IMG/VR virus record: IMGVR_UViG_3300027637_000031
Location: 1 to 22,305 of that record
DNA from: a virus
DNA: 22,305 nt
Direction: 5' to 3' (one strand)
Part shown: positions 4,178-19,926 of the stretch, piece by piece
How positions within the stretch are numbered: position 1 is the stretch's first letter
Layout: every line of letters begins with the position of its first letter
Made by a program: the position numbers and the translations under genes
Notes under the pieces: generated by a model
What the model saw: only the letters and a program-made list of their open reading frames with translations
What the model was told of the DNA's origin: nothing
Databases searched by the model: none

Positions 4178-4188
4178 CTCTCGGCTAC
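4174..4188. terminator. small hairpin between convergent stops
   Basis: A 5-bp stem GTAGC-GCTAC with a 5-base loop spans the stop codons of the glycosyltransferase and the convergent RNA ligase gene. It is symmetric, so it could weakly terminate both strands. It is short and lacks a T-tract, so it may be chance. Confidence 0.25.
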
Positions 4189-4730
4189 TGGAAGTCCCTC
4201 GCCTTGATCTTCACCATCGGCCCGTCAGGGTGGTGGTAGACCAGCCCCTCCCACTCATGGCGCGCAAGGAAGTTCGCGATCTCGTCGTAGGTGCGGATGT
4301 CGAGGCCGGAAGCGACGGTCTCGGCGGTCGCATGACGGATGAGCGTGTGCCGTTCGAGCCCTTCGGGGTTGCCGTTGATCTTCGGCCCGCAGAGTTCGTA
4401 GGTACCGTGCGGCCAGTCGTGCATGATCTCGGCGGCTTCGGCGTGGAACTTCACGAACGAGGACTGCTCGATGGGTTCCCAGCCCACAGTCTTTCCGGTG
4501 ACTTCGTCGCGCTCGACGGGCGCGTAGTTCGCCGGGGGTGTCTTCCCGGGCTTGACCTCGCGGCGCGCCCACCATTCGCCGGACTCGTCGAGCAGGATGC
4601 ATGTCCCGTCGTACTTGCGGGTGGCTACGCCGTACCCGTCCATGACCCATTCGCAGCCGGGCGTGACCTGGTTGAGGACGTGGCGACGGTCTTCGGGGTT
4701 ACGGACAAACAGGGTCGGGATCTTCTGCAT
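4185..4730 (-). CDS. RNA ligase-type nucleotidyltransferase (RNA ligase 1 family-like)
   Basis: A 181-residue protein from ATG 4730, with AAGGAG 9 bases upstream. It shows the ordered motifs of the covalent nucleotidyltransferase superfamily: motif I KYDGT with the AMP-accepting lysine K39, an early WWARREVKPGK block (53-63), motif IIIa-like GTYELCGPKINGN (109-121), motif IV EGLVYHH (161-167) and motif V VKIKARDF (173-180). This is the adenylyltransferase core of ATP-dependent RNA/DNA ligases, which form an enzyme-AMP and seal 5'-phosphate and 3'-hydroxyl ends. It ends right after motif V, so it has no OB fold or T4 Rnl1-type C-terminal domain. RNA sealing is inferred from its similarity to small RNA-ligase-like proteins. 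It is the last gene of a three-gene minus-strand cassette, 21 bases after the WhiB-like gene. Confidence 0.85.
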   Translation of the reverse strand: MQKIPTLFVRNPEDRRHVLNQVTPGCEWVMDGYGVATRKYDGTCILLDESGEWWARREVKPGKTPPANYAPVERDEVTGKTVGWEPIEQSSFVKFHAEAAEIMHDWPHGTYELCGPKINGNPEGLERHTLIRHATAETVASGLDIRTYDEIANFLARHEWEGLVYHHPDGPMVKIKARDFQ

Positions 4731-4751
4731 CGGGCGATGCTCCTTCGCAGT

Positions 4752-5141
4752 TCAGGCTGCGGCTGATGGTAGCGGTGTAGCGGCGATCGGCTCTTCACGC
4801 ACGTCACGGATCCAGGAGATGCCGCACGCGAGGCACAGTTCGTGCGGGTCCTGATACACCAGCGCCGTGCCGAGACACAGCGGGCACTTCGCCCGGGTGC
4901 GCACCCGGCGGAGCTGCGCGCGCTGATATGTCGTCGTCCCACCCCAGTAGCCCTCAGCGCCATGCAGCATCGCCCACGCCAGGCACTGGGTGCGGACGTC
5001 GCAGGTGCGGCACCACTGCTGCGCGGTGGCGAGCCCCTCGTCCGTTTCGACGTCGGGGATGAAGTCGCAGTCGGCGGTGGCGCAGGGGGCGTCCTGCTGC
5101 CAGGCGACGTCATCGGCGGAGAAGAAGTCGACGATGGTCAC
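4752..5141 (-). CDS. WhiB-family regulator fused to a C-terminal zinc ribbon
   Basis: A 129-residue protein from GTG 5141, preceded by GAGGAG. This start gives a normal WhiB N-terminus; a longer reading to 5414 only overlaps the upstream gene. The four Fe-S cysteines are C20, C44, C47 and C53 (C-x23-C-x2-C-x5-C), followed by the GYWGG turn at 64-68 that in WhiB proteins contacts the principal sigma factor. In place of the usual short basic tail, residues 85-110 form a second motif, CPLC at 86-89 and CLAC at 103-106, which looks like a zinc ribbon. WhiB proteins are actinobacterial Fe-S transcription factors, and phage copies can act as dominant regulators of host genes. The Cys pairs suggest an extra nucleic-acid-binding module. 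It is 10 bases after the wHTH gene and upstream of the RNA ligase gene. Confidence 0.9.
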   Translation of the reverse strand: MTIVDFFSADDVAWQQDAPCATADCDFIPDVETDEGLATAQQWCRTCDVRTQCLAWAMLHGAEGYWGGTTTYQRAQLRRVRTRAKCPLCLGTALVYQDPHELCLACGISWIRDVREEPIAATPLPSAAA

Positions 5142-5151
5142 GGCTAACTCC

Positions 5152-5397
5152 TCACGGGCACGGGGTGTCGTCGGCAACGGACCAGACGATCGCCCCACGG
5201 TCGAGGCACTGCCGGATCCGACCCGCCTTGTGGAGGCGCTGGCAGGAGAGGTACACCGCGTCGCGGTCGTAGCCGGTGCGGTCGGCGAGGTCGCGGCGGG
5301 AGCCGATGCCGTTGGCGATGAGCCGGTATATGGCCTCGTCGCGGGCGATGACGTCGGGGTCGCGGGGGCGGCCGGGGCGGCGTGCGGTCTGCTGCAT
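5152..5397 (-). CDS. small winged-helix DNA-binding protein
   Basis: An 81-residue protein from ATG 5397, with GAGGC upstream. A basic N-terminal arm (RRPGRPRDPD, residues 6-15) is followed by helices IYRLIANGIGSRRDLADRTG and YDRDAVYLSCQRLHKAGRI (about 23-61), then a beta-hairpin wing GAIVWSV (68-74). This is the classic winged helix-turn-helix layout of a small DNA-binding regulator. It is the first gene of the minus-strand cassette with the WhiB-zinc ribbon and RNA ligase genes, and may control its own operon. Its operator cannot be assigned. Confidence 0.82.
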   Translation of the reverse strand: MQQTARRPGRPRDPDVIARDEAIYRLIANGIGSRRDLADRTGYDRDAVYLSCQRLHKAGRIRQCLDRGAIVWSVADDTPCP

Positions 5398-5435
5398 GGG
5401 AGCCTCGCATTCACTTAGCCGGAGGGCTGAATACC

Positions 5436-5441
5436 ATTATG
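5436..5441 (-). promoter_or_regulatory. possible -10 element for the wHTH-WhiB-ligase cassette
   Basis: On the minus strand CATAAT (5 of 6 matches to TATAAT) lies about 39 bases upstream of the wHTH start, in the 140-base gap between divergent genes. A TTGG sequence upstream gives only a poor -35 box at short spacing. The assignment rests on the -10 match alone. Confidence 0.3.
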
Positions 5442-5537
5442 CAGAGGGGCGCAAGTGACCAATGCGGCCGGAACGACAGGCCTGCTGCGGCTGCCAAACT
5501 GCCTTTCGAGTGAGGACGGAGCAGGGAGGCGGAACGC

Positions 5538-5885
5538 GTGCCGGACGAGCCGACACTCGGCGAAGTCGTCAGACGCCTAGAGGCCGTGCACCAAGACCTC
5601 AAGGAAGACTTCCGCGACGTCGCCGGGCGGCTCGACGGCAAAGTGTCGATCGAGCGCTTCCAGTACGAGAAAGACGCGCAACTGGAGCGCGAACGGCTGG
5701 TCACTGAGCGGGTCAAGGCAATTGAGGAAGCTCGGGCACAGGAGACACGGGAGAAGCTGGAGGCTGAGCAGAAGGCGGCGGACCGGCGGGCAGCTGACCG
5801 TCGTCTGATCTTCTCGGCTTTGATCGCCCCCGTGCTGATGCTGCTGCTGACCCTCTACCTCTCCAGCCAAGGAGCTGGGACATGA
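5538..5885 (+). CDS. coiled-coil protein with C-terminal membrane anchor
   Basis: A 115-residue protein from GTG 5538, with GGGAGGC 8 bases upstream. A long highly charged helical region (about residues 5-88) has repeated Glu/Arg/Lys patterns such as [19 protein letters not shown] single C-terminal hydrophobic segment (about 90-108, [18 protein letters not shown]) leads to a very short tail. This is a tail-anchored or N-in topology with a cytoplasmic coiled coil. It resembles small membrane proteins found near phage lysis genes, but I cannot assign a family. Its TGA overlaps the ATG of the collagen-like gene (ATGA), so the two products are probably made together. A holin-accessory, spanin-like or membrane-scaffold role is possible. 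Confidence 0.8.
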
Positions 5886-6496
5886 GAACGGGGCATGCGA
5901 ATCAGACGCAGCGGCATCGGCAGGAGGATGCCAGGTTCGCGGTGTTCGCGGTGCTGGTACTGGCGGGGTTTGTACTGCTGGCGTTGTGGGTGCAGGGGCT
6001 GGCGCAGGATCGGGATGCGCTGGCGCGGCAGGTGCAGCAGTTGGGCGGGACACCGGTAGCCGGTCCGCCCGGGATCCGTGGCGAGCCCGGAGCGACGGTC
6101 ACCGGGCCACCAGGCAGACCGGGCGAGAAGGGGGAGCGTGGCGAGCCGGGGAAACCAGGGCGGCCCGCGCCGACCATCACCCCGAGCCCTGGAGCCTCAG
6201 GTGCCTCCGGCGCTCCGGGTAAGCCGGGCGCCGACTCCACCGTCCCGGGGCCGCCCGGTGCGGACTCGACCGTGCCGGGGCCTTCCGGCCCGCCGGGGGA
6301 ACGCGGCGAGAAAGGCGACACCGGTGAGCCGGGAGCGCCGGGCCCGGCCTGCCCGGACGGCTACAGCTTGCAGGCCCCGTCGTACGACCCGGATGCGTTG
6401 GTGTGCCGTCGGGATGGGGTGCCGGATCCGGGGCCGGGTGAGGGTCAGGGTTCTCAGGCTGCGGCGTTGGATCCGCAGCGCCGTCAGTACGTGTAG
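5882..6496 (+). CDS. membrane-anchored collagen-like repeat protein
   Basis: A 204-residue protein from ATG 5882. A basic N-terminus is followed by one membrane segment (about residues 19-38, [19 protein letters not shown]), a short helical stretch ([12 protein letters not shown]) and then Gly-X-Y collagen-like repeats from about residue 61 to 156. The repeats are interrupted by [16 protein letters not shown]. They include [13 protein letters not shown] and [13 protein letters not shown], whose charged triplets favour collagen triple helices, and twice contain the block GADSTVPGP. The end has two cysteines ([19 protein letters not shown]) that could form a disulphide, then a Gly/Pro-rich tail. 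The topology implies a stalk on the outside of the membrane. It is coupled to the preceding coiled-coil membrane protein. No enzyme domain is seen. Confidence 0.85.
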
Positions 6497-6557: not shown

Positions 6558-7010
6558 CTACTTGCCGAGCCGTTCCCGAGCCTGATCCAAACGGGCGCGC
6601 AGCAGGTCGGCGTCGACTTCCTGCAGACCGCCCCGCGTCAACTTGTAGACCCATGGCCCAGGGATGGCGGCGAGGGGCACCAGCTGGTCGTAGAGCTCCC
6701 GGAAGTGGGCGATCCTCTGCCGGGTGGGGGTGTTGTTGTCCGTGAAGACGAGGTATCTCGCCGAGTGGTCGAGAATCGCCTGCAGCTCGAGCAGGTTGCT
6801 CAGGATGGCCTTGTCCGCACCCACACAGATACGGCCAGCCGCGCTGGCATCTGCTATCCAGCGCTCATCCATGATGTTCTCAGCGGGGGCAACTCCGTAG
6901 AGGTCGCCGATGGTCTGGACGTCTGGACACAACTCCCGTGCAGCTTCGGCGAACCGCTTGGCGTTCGTGCTCCGGTCCAGGAACAGACGCAGTCCCCCCG
7001 CTGTGGTCAT
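6558..7010 (-). CDS. PIN-like toxin of a DUF433/VapBC45-type toxin-antitoxin pair
   Basis: A 150-residue protein from ATG 7010, overlapping the stop of the antitoxin gene by 4 bases. The order of motifs fits a PIN-like RNase: LFLDRST with an acidic residue near 12, MDERWIADASAAGRI with a DE pair near 48-49, and VGADKAI with Asp near 66, followed by LLELQAI. PIN-domain toxins are Mg-dependent ribonucleases that cut tRNA or rRNA, and the acidic residues form the active site. The closest remembered layout is the VapC45-like group, where a W and a DK-I motif follow the first acidic residue. That subfamily call is from motif memory. Its partner is the upstream DUF433-like protein. The target RNA is unknown. 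Confidence 0.72.
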   Translation of the reverse strand: MTTAGGLRLFLDRSTNAKRFAEAARELCPDVQTIGDLYGVAPAENIMDERWIADASAAGRICVGADKAILSNLLELQAILDHSARYLVFTDNNTPTRQRIAHFRELYDQLVPLAAIPGPWVYKLTRGGLQEVDADLLRARLDQARERLGK

Positions 7011-7735
7011 GCAGCCTCGCGTTCGATCCGTTCCTGCACTTCGGTGACCTGGTCCTCGGGGAGTCCGTAATCGTCTGCGACGTCAGAGACCGGCTCGCCT
7101 GCCCGCAGGTCGTCCGCCACTACATACAGCGGGGTGCCCGTCTTGGTGAAGAACGGACGGCCGAAATTCACGCCCGGAAGCACGGTGATCTGAGCTACCT
7201 CGTAACCGGGAAGATCGATCTTCCGGGCATACTGGCCGCCGGACTCGTCGTAGTCGATCCGGGTCAGGTACTTCTCGATGGCCTCGCGGAACACGTACTG
7301 CCCGTCCTTCAGGACGATCAGTTTCCGGGTTTCCCGCTTGTCCTCGCCGCCCAGGTCGTCACCGATCTCGTACAGCAGCTGCGCGCCCAGCACGTAGAGC
7401 CGGCGGGAGGCAAGGGCGTGCTCGACACCGATCTGTTCGCGCACCATCTCGAGAGCTGGGCGGATCTTCTGCAGGGGTACGTTCGCGCGCCGCAGGGCGG
7501 AGAGGAACATTCCCTCGGCCAGGCCGATGAATGGGATTGAAGGATGCGGCGAGTGGGGTGAGCCCAGGTAGGTGATCAGCGGCGAGCCGACGACCTCTGG
7601 CCGGTCGGGGAAGGTGTTGCGGTAGCCTCTGGCCCAGTTCCGGAACGTGGACGAGGCCATGTCCAGGTAGCGGGCGGCCTCGGCCTGGGTGTACAGGGGG
7701 ACGCTGAAGCGGACGTCGTCACTCCTGTCAGTCAC
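7007..7735 (-). CDS. DUF433-type antitoxin with N-terminal helix-turn-helix
   Basis: A 242-residue protein starting at GTG 7735, with GGAGG 8 bases upstream; an in-frame start at 7816 lacks a good ribosome binding site. Residues about 12-32 (YTQAEAARYLDMASSTFRNW) form a MerR/XRE-like helix-turn-helix. The middle (PSIPFIGLAEGMFLSALRR, near 61-79) is typical of DUF433 proteins. The C-terminus LRAGEPVSDVADDYGLPEDQV (near 210-230) matches the DUF433 helix-turn-helix-like block. Such proteins pair with PIN-like toxins, bind the toxin and repress their own promoter. The gene order antitoxin then toxin with a 4-base overlap supports the pairing. It is an autonomous accessory unit transcribed against the neighbouring late genes. 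Confidence 0.78.
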   Translation of the reverse strand: MTDRSDDVRFSVPLYTQAEAARYLDMASSTFRNWARGYRNTFPDRPEVVGSPLITYLGSPHSPHPSIPFIGLAEGMFLSALRRANVPLQKIRPALEMVREQIGVEHALASRRLYVLGAQLLYEIGDDLGGEDKRETRKLIVLKDGQYVFREAIEKYLTRIDYDESGGQYARKIDLPGYEVAQITVLPGVNFGRPFFTKTGTPLYVVADDLRAGEPVSDVADDYGLPEDQVTEVQERIEREAA

Positions 7736-7856
7736 GGCCACCACCTCCGCCCCCAGTCTTACAGTCGCAGGGCCAGGACGATACACAGTCGTGCCCCTGA
7801 GCGTGCGGCCAATCACGATCGGGTGATGCGAACAGTCAGTACGCGACGACGCCTCG

Positions 7857-11417: not shown

Positions 11418-12959
11418 ATGCCGATCGCGCCCGAATACCTCCACCTTGTCTACCCAGACACGGTGTTCCACGCCCTGCTCTACGGCCGCGCCTCCCGCGA
11501 CCCCCGCAAAAAGGGCCGCAGCGTCGGCGACCAACTCGACACCGGACAAGACCTCTGCGACGCCCACGGCTGGCCCGTCGCCGAAACCTTCCGCGACATC
11601 GACCGCTCCGCCTCCCGCCACGCACGCCGAGCCCGCGACGACTTCGAGGCACTCATCGCAGCCATCGAAGCGAAGAAGGGTCGCATCGTCGTCGCCTTCG
11701 AGGCCTCCCGCTACTACCGCGACGTCGAGGTCTACATCCGGCTCCGCAATGCGTGCATGGCCGCCAACGTCCTGCTCTGCTACAACGGCCAGGTCTACGA
11801 CCTGTCCAAGCGCGAGGACCGCAAGGCCACCGCGATGGACGCCATCGCCGCCGAGGACGAAGCCGAAGGCATCCGCGACCGCGTGCTCCGCTCCACCCGC
11901 GCGCAGGCGAAGAAGGGTCTTCCCCACGGCCGCCTCCTGTACGGCTACGCCCGCCGCTACGACCCCGACACCGGCGACCTCATCGAGCAATACCCCCACC
12001 CCGAGCAAGGGCCCACCGTGCTGGAGGTGTTCGAGCGGGTCGCCGCAGGCGAGACCGAGTACTCGATCCTCCAGGACCTCAAGTCGCGCGGCGAACGCAC
12101 GCCCGGGGTGGAGTGGGACTACTACCACCTGCCGAACATGCTGCGGAACGTGGGCTACAAGGGACGCCGCATGCATCGCGGGGAAGACTTCGGCGAGGCA
12201 ACGTGGCCAGCAATCGTGCCGGAAGAACTCTTCGACCAGGTCCAGGAGATTCTCGGGAACGAGTCACGGAGCACGGTGCGGGACTACGCGGTGAAGCACC
12301 TGCTGTCGGGGATCGCACGCTGCGGCGAGTGCCCGGACCACCCGCACCTTCGGGTGGGGAAGTCCCGCGGGCACCTGGTCTATGACTGCTCGGCCCGCTT
12401 CGATACGCAGATGAACAAGGACAAACTCGACGCGTACGTGGAAGAGGCCGTCGTGTCGTGGCTGGGGTCCAGGGCGGCGGTGGCCGCGTTCCAGTCGGAC
12501 GAGCAGGAGAAGCGGGCGGAGCGGGCGCGCGCCCGGCAAAAGGCGCTTCAGCGGCAGCTGGACGAGGCGCGGGAGATGTCGGCAACGTTCAAGGACGACG
12601 GGGTGACGCCGCGCCTGTCACTGACGTCGCTGGCCGTGCAGGAGGACCGGCTCGTGCCGCAGATCGAGGCCGCCAAGGCGGAGGCTCAGGCGATGGACGC
12701 GCCGCCGCTGGTGCGCCGGCTCGTCGGCCGTCCGGATGTTCAGGACATCTGGAACGAGGAGCTGACGATCGAGCAGCAGCGGACGGTGTTGCGGGCGGTG
12801 GTCAACATCCGTCTGAACAAGGCCAGGAGCAGGGGCGTACGAACTATAGAGCCGGGTCGTATCACGCTGCGGTTCTACGGGCATCCGGAGTTCAGGGACC
12901 AACCACGTTATGCCCGCGGGAGCGTTCCCGCCCCGGCTGCTGAGTCGGGAACGGAATGA
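11418..12959 (+). CDS. int: large serine recombinase (phage integrase)
   Basis: A 513-residue protein from ATG 11418. It carries out site-specific strand exchange between phage attP and host attB. The resolvase-type catalytic domain is near residues 16-155, with the nucleophile S26 in YGRASRD followed by SVGDQLDTG. The recombinase domain (about 170-285) includes PHGRLLYGYARRYD and ILQDLKSRG. The zinc-ribbon region starts LLSGIARCGEC with C302 and C305, and a third cysteine is C324 (YDC), but the usual fourth cysteine is absent and only Thr/Gln/Met appear there. A coiled-coil region (about 357-385) follows, and the C-terminus is basic. The length is typical of the family. Its 3' end overlaps the convergent membrane protein gene by 68 bases. 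Confidence 0.95.
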   Translation: MPIAPEYLHLVYPDTVFHALLYGRASRDPRKKGRSVGDQLDTGQDLCDAHGWPVAETFRDIDRSASRHARRARDDFEALIAAIEAKKGRIVVAFEASRYYRDVEVYIRLRNACMAANVLLCYNGQVYDLSKREDRKATAMDAIAAEDEAEGIRDRVLRSTRAQAKKGLPHGRLLYGYARRYDPDTGDLIEQYPHPEQGPTVLEVFERVAAGETEYSILQDLKSRGERTPGVEWDYYHLPNMLRNVGYKGRRMHRGEDFGEATWPAIVPEELFDQVQEILGNESRSTVRDYAVKHLLSGIARCGECPDHPHLRVGKSRGHLVYDCSARFDTQMNKDKLDAYVEEAVVSWLGSRAAVAAFQSDEQEKRAERARARQKALQRQLDEAREMSATFKDDGVTPRLSLTSLAVQEDRLVPQIEAAKAEAQAMDAPPLVRRLVGRPDVQDIWNEELTIEQQRTVLRAVVNIRLNKARSRGVRTIEPGRITLRFYGHPEFRDQPRYARGSVPAPAAESGTE

Positions 12960-17703: not shown

Positions 17704-18164
17704 CCGAGGCAACGATCCGCCGCGAGTACCTCCTCGCCGCCCTCCGGCGCTTCGGCGGACCGGTCACCACCCAGCGGGCCTTGAACATCTACGCCAAGTC
17801 ACGCGAGTGGACCACGACCGGCAGGAACACCGCACGCCGCGACCTACGGGACCTCGCCCGGCGCGCATACCTCGTACCCGCCGAGCACCAAGGACGCCGC
17901 TTCTACCAACTCGGCAGCGACCCCAGCCCCATGCACCCCACCGCACGCGGGTCCCGGAAGGCCGTCCTGGAGGCGATCCAGACGGAGGGCGGCGAGTGGA
18001 CCACCGGCCGTATCAGGCACACGTGGCAACAGCTCATCGGCACGCACATCCTCCGCTTCACCGCGCGCCGCTACCTCGCCGCTCTGCACCGCGACGGCTA
18101 CCTCGACCAGCACGGCCACGGAACACCGCGCCGCTTCTACACCGTCAGGAAGGACAACGCCTGA
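17700..18164 (+). CDS. winged-helix DNA-binding protein
   Basis: A 154-residue protein from ATG 17700. It appears to hold two winged-helix units: the first about residues 5-70 (REYLLAALRRFGGPVTTQRALN, NTARRDLRDLARRAYLVP, wing RRFYQLGS) and the second about 83-148 (SRKAVLEAIQTEGGEW, ARRYLAALHRDGYLD, wing PRRFYTVRK). Repeats of this type bind DNA and may recognise an origin or promoter. It lies immediately before the recombination genes and could act as a replication initiator-like or operon regulator. Function is inferred from fold only. Confidence 0.75.
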   Translation: MTEATIRREYLLAALRRFGGPVTTQRALNIYAKSREWTTTGRNTARRDLRDLARRAYLVPAEHQGRRFYQLGSDPSPMHPTARGSRKAVLEAIQTEGGEWTTGRIRHTWQQLIGTHILRFTARRYLAALHRDGYLDQHGHGTPRRFYTVRKDNA

Positions 18165-19051
18165 TGACGATCGTCGAGCAGGTCGCGGCGGGTGCCCCGG
18201 CCGCCGGCCCCAGCATCACTGAGCCCGGCATGTACGACATGACCAACGAGGAGTACCACTCCCACCGCTACGCCCTCTCCTCCAGTGGCGCCCGCATGCT
18301 CCTCCCCCCGTCCTGCCCCGCCCTGTTCCGGCACGCGCAGGACACCCCGCCCGAGCCGAAGAAGACGTACGAACTCGGCACCGCCGCACACAAGCTGGTC
18401 CTCGGCGAAGGCCCCGACCTCGTACAAGTTGACGCGGACAAGTGGACGACGAACGCAGTCAAGGCCGAAGTCGCCGCGATCCGCGACGAGGGCGGCATCC
18501 CACTGAAGCCCGCCGAATACGAGCAAGTCCACGCGATGGCCGACGCCCTGCGCCGACACCCCATCGCCGCCGCCCTGTTCGACCCCGCGCGCGGGAAGCC
18601 CGAGCAGTCCCTGTTCTGGCGGGACCGGCCGACCGGCGTCATGCGCAGGGCCCGCTTCGACTGGCTGCCCGACGCCCGCTCCGGACGCCTGATCATCCCC
18701 GACTACAAGACGTGCCGATCCGCCGAACCCGCCGCGCTCGCACGGGCGGTGGAGGAATTCGGCTACCACCAGCAAGACGACTGGTACCGCGCCGCCGCAC
18801 GAGCCCTCGGCCTCGCCGACGACACGGCCGCGTTCGTCTTCGTCTGCCAGGAGAAGACCCCGCCGTACGTCGTGACCGTCGTCGAGATGGACGCCACCGC
18901 CCGCCGAATCGGAGCGGCCCGCAACCGGCGCGCCCTCGAAGTCTTCGCCGAGTGCACCGCCACCGGTGTCTGGCCCGGCTACAGCGACGAGATCGCCTAC
19001 CTCTCCCTGCCCACCTGGGCCGAAAACCGTGACACCGAGGAGTACCTGTGA
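18164..19051 (+). CDS. PD-(D/E)XK exonuclease, RecE/exodeoxyribonuclease VIII-like
   Basis: A 295-residue protein from ATG 18164 in a one-base overlap with the previous stop. It belongs to the PD-(D/E)XK nuclease superfamily found in phage recombination pairs. GTAAHKLVLGEG (about 72-83) is the conserved GxxxH helix. D166 in ARFDWLP and D180-Y-K182 (IPDYKTC) form the catalytic D...D-x-K pattern, followed by FGYHQQDDWYRAAA (about 197-210) with Gln and Tyr of the QxxxY motif. The expected reaction is 5'-3' resection of double-stranded DNA to give 3' single strands for an annealing protein. The next gene is a probable annealing protein. Confidence 0.88.
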   Translation: MTIVEQVAAGAPAAGPSITEPGMYDMTNEEYHSHRYALSSSGARMLLPPSCPALFRHAQDTPPEPKKTYELGTAAHKLVLGEGPDLVQVDADKWTTNAVKAEVAAIRDEGGIPLKPAEYEQVHAMADALRRHPIAAALFDPARGKPEQSLFWRDRPTGVMRRARFDWLPDARSGRLIIPDYKTCRSAEPAALARAVEEFGYHQQDDWYRAAARALGLADDTAAFVFVCQEKTPPYVVTVVEMDATARRIGAARNRRALEVFAECTATGVWPGYSDEIAYLSLPTWAENRDTEEYL

Positions 19052-19926
19052 ACTACCCCGCCGAGCGCCCGGCCCCGGCTGCCGCCCCTGCTCGCATCGG
19101 GCAGGGAACCGCTGTCGAGCAGTCCCGCGCCGTCGCCGAGGTCCAGGCCGCGATCGTCGTCGCACAGAACTGCCCCCGCGACATCAACGCCGCCATCGCC
19201 GAGATGCGCCAGTCCTGCCAGCAGATGTTCCTCGCCGAGCGCGCGTTCTTCCGCTACTCCCGAGGCTCCGGCAGCATCACCGGCGCCTCCGTCCACCTCG
19301 CCCGCGAACTCGCCCGCTGCTGGGGAAACATCCAGTACGGCCTCGTCGAGATGCGCCGCGACGACGAGTTCGGCCAGTCCGAGATGCAGGCCTTCGCCTG
19401 GGACGTCGAGAAGAACTCCCGCAATTCATCGACGTTCATCGTTCCGCACAAGAGGGACCAAAAGGGCGGCCCCAAGCAGCTCACCGACATGCGGGACATC
19501 TACGAGAACAACGCGAACAACGGTGCCCGTCGCGTCCGTGAGGCGATCTTCGCGATCCTCCCGCCCTGGTTCGTCGAAGAGGCCAAGCAGATCTGCACCA
19601 AGACGCTGTCCGATGGCGGCGGCAAGCCGCTCCCGCAGCGCATCGCCGACGCGATCCGCGCGTTCGAGGGCATCGGCGTCACGCAGGACCGCATCGAGAC
19701 GAAGCTCGGCCGGCCGTCGGGGAAGTGGACCGAGCACGACGTTGCGCAGCTCCTCGTCGCGTTCCAGTCCATCAACCGCGGCGAAGTGACGGCGGACGAC
19801 GAGTTCCCGCTGCCGCGGGTGACGGTGGACGAGATCAAGCAGCAGGCGGCCACGCCCCCGCCCGCGGCTGAGGGTTCGTCGGAGTGGCCGGCGGCTGCGG
19901 CTCCCGGATCGGGGGCCCGCGCATGA
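19048..19926 (+). CDS. probable single-strand annealing protein (RecT/Redbeta-like role)
   Basis: A 292-residue protein from GTG 19048, overlapping the exonuclease stop. It contains SRGSGSITGASVHLARELAR and WGNIQYGLVEMR (about 71-105), then EMQAFAWDVEKNSR (about 113-126) and IVPHKRD. This layout occurs in a group of actinophage proteins found next to exonucleases. The N-terminus is Pro/Ala-rich, and the tail after about residue 265 is a flexible Ala/Pro/Gly region. The pairing with a PD-(D/E)XK exonuclease is the main support for a single-strand annealing role; motifs alone do not prove it. No ATPase motif is seen, so a RecA-type function is unlikely. Confidence 0.65.
   Translation: MNYPAERPAPAAAPARIGQGTAVEQSRAVAEVQAAIVVAQNCPRDINAAIAEMRQSCQQMFLAERAFFRYSRGSGSITGASVHLARELARCWGNIQYGLVEMRRDDEFGQSEMQAFAWDVEKNSRNSSTFIVPHKRDQKGGPKQLTDMRDIYENNANNGARRVREAIFAILPPWFVEEAKQICTKTLSDGGGKPLPQRIADAIRAFEGIGVTQDRIETKLGRPSGKWTEHDVAQLLVAFQSINRGEVTADDEFPLPRVTVDEIKQQAATPPPAAEGSSEWPAAAAPGSGARA

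Follow-up and report, generated by a model that had tools for sequence, protein, structure and literature searches.

The window, the whole stretch of DNA analysed here, is an IMG/VR virus record of 22,305 bp, i.e., a 22-kb fragment. It contains a unit of three co-directional minus-strand genes encoding a small winged-helix protein (wHTH), a WhiB protein with a putative C-terminal zinc ribbon (WhiB-ZnR), and a predicted RNA ligase. The first-pass annotation had claimed these three genes, and we found all of them as open reading frames with the positions and strand that it gave. The features of the locus are as follows.

5435..5442, minus strand: conserved GCATAATG box, -10-like, seen in the alignment upstream of wHTH, directly before the operator-like motif
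5410..5431, minus strand: operator-like motif TTCAGCCCTCCGGCTAAGTGAA, a spaced inverted repeat of 22 bp located 34 bp before the wHTH start
5152-5397, minus strand: wHTH gene, 81 aa, first gene of the unit
4752-5141, minus strand: WhiB-ZnR gene, 129 aa, GTG start
4740..4746, minus strand: ligase ribosome-binding site GAAGGAG
4185-4730, minus strand: RNA ligase gene, 181 aa
3128..4177, plus strand: glycosyltransferase-like gene, convergent (PF13524, E=5e-4, below the cut-off)
11418-12956: large serine integrase, right of the unit

The intergenic gaps are 10 nt between wHTH and WhiB-ZnR and 21 nt between WhiB-ZnR and the ligase, and the ligase ribosome-binding site lies within the latter. On the left are genes for an amidase endolysin, a small holin-like protein, and the glycosyltransferase-like protein, which closes the lysis region and whose 3' end forms the far border of the ligase position. 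The right flank holds a small gene, a collagen-like gene, a PIN_10/DUF433 pair, and then the integrase. By these flanking genes, the unit falls between the lysis region and the integrase and is oriented towards the late operon. Passenger (moron) genes expressed from the prophage are usual at this position. The earlier placement in the late region is thus right in that late and lysis genes adjoin the unit, but the region is not otherwise plus-strand, because a further minus-strand pair lies at 6558-7816. This pair, a PIN_10 protein (gene at 6558-7010) beside an HTH_66/DUF433 protein, resembles a toxin-antitoxin pair, and the DUF433 protein also has a weak match to the PADLOC mad1 profile. The collagen-like gene (5882-6496, plus strand) encodes GXX repeats after a membrane segment, and several relatives have similar stretches next to the module. 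Positions 18114-19866 (plus strand) are 75% identical at the DNA level to genes of Streptomyces phage OnionKnight that carry the annotations Cas4 exonuclease and DNA-binding protein. In a related locus, L011, an integrase 92% identical to that of the window lies near the same wHTH-WhiB module. Rfam, tRNA, and sigma-70 scans across the window were all empty, and none of the three proteins matched a PADLOC profile. All three genes are under purifying selection, with dN/dS of about 0.12 for the ligase against that of L002, 0.12-0.15 for WhiB-ZnR against its nearest relatives, and 0.03-0.5 for wHTH.

The ligase matches phrog_14301 (E=4e-53), and its profile matches Yasminevirus RLIG1 (E=7e-21). 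Against PF17720 (formerly DUF5565), the family of RLIG1 (C12orf29 in humans), it scores 24.1 bits, just under the Pfam gathering cut-off of 25, and we therefore call it RLIG1-like; all 21 of its relatives match PF17720 at E<=0.01, the best at 1.2e-14. The AlphaFold model (pLDDT 91.8) superposes on Yasminevirus RLIG1 (PDB 9c6l) with a TM score of 0.78. In a structure search, the top 12 PDB hits were all Yasminevirus RLIG1 chains (best E 2.9e-12), and the next hits followed at an E of about 0.01, so that the NTase-only fold of the model is closest to RLIG1. Residues K39, D41, R56, E112, H133, E161, and K174 align with K73, D75, R89, E174, H195, E240, and K253 of YspRLIG1. All seven catalytic residues, covering KxDG and motifs Ia, III, IIIa, IV, and V, are intact; among 21 homologues six are invariant, including K39 of the nucleotidyl-transfer motif KYDGT, and H133 is at least 90% conserved. 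Their YspRLIG1 counterparts were shown to be needed (PMC11494293). The earlier observation that the core stops just past motif V and lacks an OB or C-terminal domain is accurate, with seven residues following the lysine K174. This absence is normal for RLIG1-like ligases, because RLIG1 has already been described as a minimal ligase fold without an RNA-binding domain (PMC11494293), and for the same reason we rejected the OB-less architecture as a novelty. By sequence and model, the protein is a predicted minimal RLIG1-like 5'-3' RNA ligase.

Several known ligases help to place it. The window ligase shares the NTase-only fold and the catalytic residues with Yasminevirus RLIG1 (PDB 9c6l/9c6m), and the OB/RNA-binding domain is absent in both, whereas it has 181 residues against 277 in the crystallised Yasminevirus construct and is known from sequence and model. 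Members of phrog_14301, annotated "RNA ligase", from the cluster K5 mycobacteriophages Waterfoul, Gengar, and Paola and from Nocardia phage NTR1 are 46-47% identical along the entire length. The ligase of Waterfoul, NTR1, and Cellulophaga phi10:1 lies among hypothetical genes without the wHTH-WhiB pair. The T4 Pnkp/Rnl1 tRNA repair system likewise has a 5'-3' ATP-dependent RNA ligase in a phage, but the window ligase lacks the Rnl1 C-terminal domain, and a kinase/phosphatase partner was not found in the window.

WhiB-ZnR scores 44.7 bits against PF02467 (cut-off 23.6, E=2e-11) and carries the four cluster cysteines, which places it in the WhiB/Wbl family. In 29 homologues, none of these cysteines (C20, C44, C47, and C53) or of those in the extension (C86, C89, C103, and C106) varies, and there is very little change in the tail EEPIAATPLP. 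A WhiB protein with four Fe-S cysteines and a second CxxC...CxxC module, as proposed in the first-pass annotation, is thus well founded. Solved WhiB structures match the protein to about residue 89 and none beyond, and so the ribbon is an addition to the WhiB core. Because the AlphaFold model is poor (pLDDT 52), the zinc-ribbon assignment rests on cysteine spacing and conservation. No full-length match was found in INPHARED (about 50,000 phage records), where phage WhiB proteins share 33-45% identity, largely confined to the core. Actinophage WhiB proteins, including TM4 WhiB (PMC8612146), have the WhiB core, the four cysteines, and a basic tail in common, and the window protein differs from them in the CxxC...CxxC ribbon, the EEPIAATPLP tail, and the wHTH partner; zinc is unmentioned in the survey of these proteins (PMC8612146). 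The wHTH protein gave only weak HTH matches in Pfam and no match in the same INPHARED records. It has an N-terminal GRPR (AT-hook-like) motif, C64, and a C-terminal TPCP tail, and its residues R7, G9-R12, C64, W72, P79, and C80 are invariant among 27 homologues.

We fetched homologues of WhiB-ZnR and the ligase from IMG/VR, and of WhiB-ZnR also from bacterial genomes, in which the named hosts are Streptomyces. The resulting WhiB-ZnR set comprises 39 distinct proteins besides the one in the window, from IMG/VR contigs and five Streptomyces genomes. The wHTH gene lies upstream of WhiB-ZnR in all 39 loci, one of them only partly visible at a contig edge, whereas the ligase accompanies the pair in four and is missing from the other 35. 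The three genes had been proposed to travel together; this is true of wHTH and WhiB-ZnR and fails for the ligase. A dedicated three-gene system was dropped as the default because the ligase is kept in so few relatives.

The glycosyltransferase gene was located in 38 loci. In 22 of these, the WhiB gene overlaps the convergent glycosyltransferase gene by about 29 nt, which leaves no room for a third gene. The remaining 16 have inserts of 139-1144 nt; four of these contain the ligase, and twelve contain either different ORFs or none that is clear. Behind its insert, L025 repeats 19 residues of the WhiB tail, the relic expected of an insertion into overlapping genes, and this marks the insert as inserted. 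We read the cargo-less arrangement as ancestral. A possible vestige of the WhiB tail (ATPGSPCAA*) also stands behind the window ligase; it is ambiguous because the overlapping glycosyltransferase gene constrains those bases as well. Other occupants of the slot were seen too. L025 and L034 encode a 138-140 aa protein (GTVITLDDGR.VQLA.T.DCCAYTELKSFLLHADRIDHVITGVGTTDGY) in the ligase position. Distant WhiB-ZnR proteins of L148, L149, and L151 face the same glycosyltransferase without a wHTH, and L148 and L149 have a gene of 75-91 aa in the slot. In L058, the C-terminal tail of WhiB is present in a further copy, upstream of wHTH (1209-1295). A search of the five Streptomyces genomes that carry the pair, run without a positive control, did not find the ligase.

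The region upstream of wHTH contains TTCA-N14-TGAA in 30 of 38 loci, 34 bp before the start codon except for one at 36, and the copy at 5410..5431 is the sole match in the window. Pairing within the inverted repeat is incomplete, at 5-9 of 11 positions across loci and 6 in the window. Searching the fetched loci (about 2.1 Mb, with overlaps between loci counted) for a strict form with a CCGG centre gave 31 hits, none of them away from a wHTH gene. In two of the five Streptomyces genomes (9.7 and 10.9 Mb), the motif also occurs once each, within the prophage contigs that were fetched; the other three genomes lack it. The centre varies with the type of wHTH: it is absent in 6/6 loci whose wHTH has a "TTDLV" recognition region and present in 22/24 with other wHTHs. 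With WhiB distance controlled, operator and wHTH covary (partial Mantel r=0.59, p=0.0002; 0.19 the other way), a correlation that shared recombination could mimic since operator and wHTH gene adjoin on the DNA. A single-copy motif that varies with the wHTH type suggests that wHTH is probably the autoregulator of the operon. A consensus promoter scan recognised no sigma-70 pair at the GCATAATG box and no -35 box, and the wHTH promoter is for this reason a putative one. Upstream of wHTH in L025, L057, and L059, a different palindrome stands where the TTCA/TGAA operator stands elsewhere (GATCACCGGATCGGTTGATC in L025 and L057, GATC-based in L059).

Among 77 ligases placed in a tree, the five linked to WhiB require four label changes, three of them forced by well-supported branches, and they occupy at least three places. 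The window, L002, L011, and L022 share an almost identical junction between WhiB and the ligase, and that of L043 differs. The conserved junction fits one founding insertion followed by exchange of the ligase, so that the three tree positions need not mean three independent insertions; the simplest reading of these sequences is that there were at least two junctions and that ligase bodies were swapped by recombination behind one. Most ligase records have no WhiB gene nearby. Once the glycosyltransferase context that the loci share is set aside, WhiB-type genes were the only notable recurrent neighbours in 76 ligase loci. Two unrelated loci, L009 and L016, likewise have a WhiB-family gene immediately upstream of the ligase (2 seen against 0.18-0.37 expected; P 0.015-0.05, counted after the fact). 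tRNA genes are present in 15 of the 76 ligase loci, a figure with no control set; DUF5565 neighbourhoods have been described as enriched in tRNA genes (PMC10364804). The absence of a kinase/phosphatase from the window, as noted earlier, is borne out by the lack of an AAA_33 match in this 22-kb fragment. We rejected such a kinase as a regular partner of the ligase, since AAA_33 exceeded the cut-off in 4 of 49 related ligase records and was absent from 45. The PIN/DUF433 pair was likewise rejected as a partner, as it is in no other fetched locus.

We consider it probable that the locus is a two-gene regulatory module (wHTH and WhiB-ZnR) of Streptomyces temperate phages with co-transcribed cargo, here an RLIG1-like ligase. 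This reading is based on the constant pair, the variable slot, the operator-like motif, and the intact ligase active site. One transcript from the wHTH promoter would span the operon. The wHTH protein would control the operon, presumably by autorepression, through binding to the single operator that separates the -10-like box from the wHTH start codon. WhiB-ZnR may modulate transcription via sigma-factor contact, like other Wbl proteins, and its extra ribbon could give a further DNA or protein contact. The ligase would join broken RNA whose ends are 5'-phosphate and 3'-hydroxyl, cut tRNA being its most likely substrate. If the lesion already has such ends, the scarcity of kinases near the ligase is easier to understand. 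Repair of tRNA is plausible by analogy with the tested RLIG1 homologues.

Three other explanations were weighed against the two-gene module. In one, the three genes form a dedicated RNA-repair system in which an Fe-S WhiB senses redox or nitrosative stress and turns on the ligase. The co-directional genes with short gaps, the good ribosome-binding site of the ligase, the ligases from at least three tree positions behind WhiB-ZnR, and the post hoc count of L009 and L016 all agree with it. It is nevertheless improbable: most relatives keep the pair without the ligase, WhiB is absent near most ligases, unrelated genes also occupy the slot, and the operator evidence points to wHTH as the autoregulator of the operon.

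The ligase could instead be a counter-defence enzyme that reseals tRNA cut by PIN/VapC-type nucleases of the host or a prophage, a possible explanation that we hold only tentatively. PIN/VapC nucleases probably leave 5'-phosphate and 3'-hydroxyl ends, which would be sealable without a kinase/phosphatase. The scarcity of AAA_33 kinases and the PIN_10 gene of the window fit this explanation, but the PIN pair is not a recurrent neighbour of the ligase, and the tRNA gene count has no control set to compare with. In its favour, homologues of RLIG1 ligate the two halves of an anticodon loop that bear 5'-phosphate and 3'-hydroxyl ends (PMC11494293). In mycobacteria, VapC toxins cleave tRNAs in the anticodon loop (PMC6459853), and tRNAs of phages seem to escape these toxins (PMC10264068). 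Finally, WhiB-ZnR may act on the host (division or superinfection exclusion) with the ligase unlinked to it, as TM4 WhiB is reported to be a dominant-negative regulator with a superinfection-resistant phenotype (PMC8612146). The distant phages that have WhiB-ZnR without wHTH are consistent with such a role, whereas the low and largely core-confined identity to INPHARED phage WhiB proteins weakens the comparison, and we regard a host-acting WhiB as rather unlikely.

Under the two-gene module, the ligase would be an exchangeable passenger inserted behind the pair in some Streptomyces prophages, that of the window included. The parts are all of known kinds; what appears new from the sequences is the fused WhiB, the wHTH partner with its single-site operator, and the cargo slot. 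A very unlikely extension is that wHTH and the Fe-S/zinc WhiB form a two-input switch, with an operator-bound wHTH and a redox-sensing WhiB placing the cargo of the slot (RNA repair or other) under stress control. If true, it would parallel, in a phage, the role in oxidative stress that has been reported for human RLIG1. The module provides a Streptomyces prophage regulator pair with a specific, directly testable single-site candidate operator, and the RLIG1-like ligases in its recurrent cargo slot may offer a tractable bacterial setting for finding what RLIG1 ligases repair.
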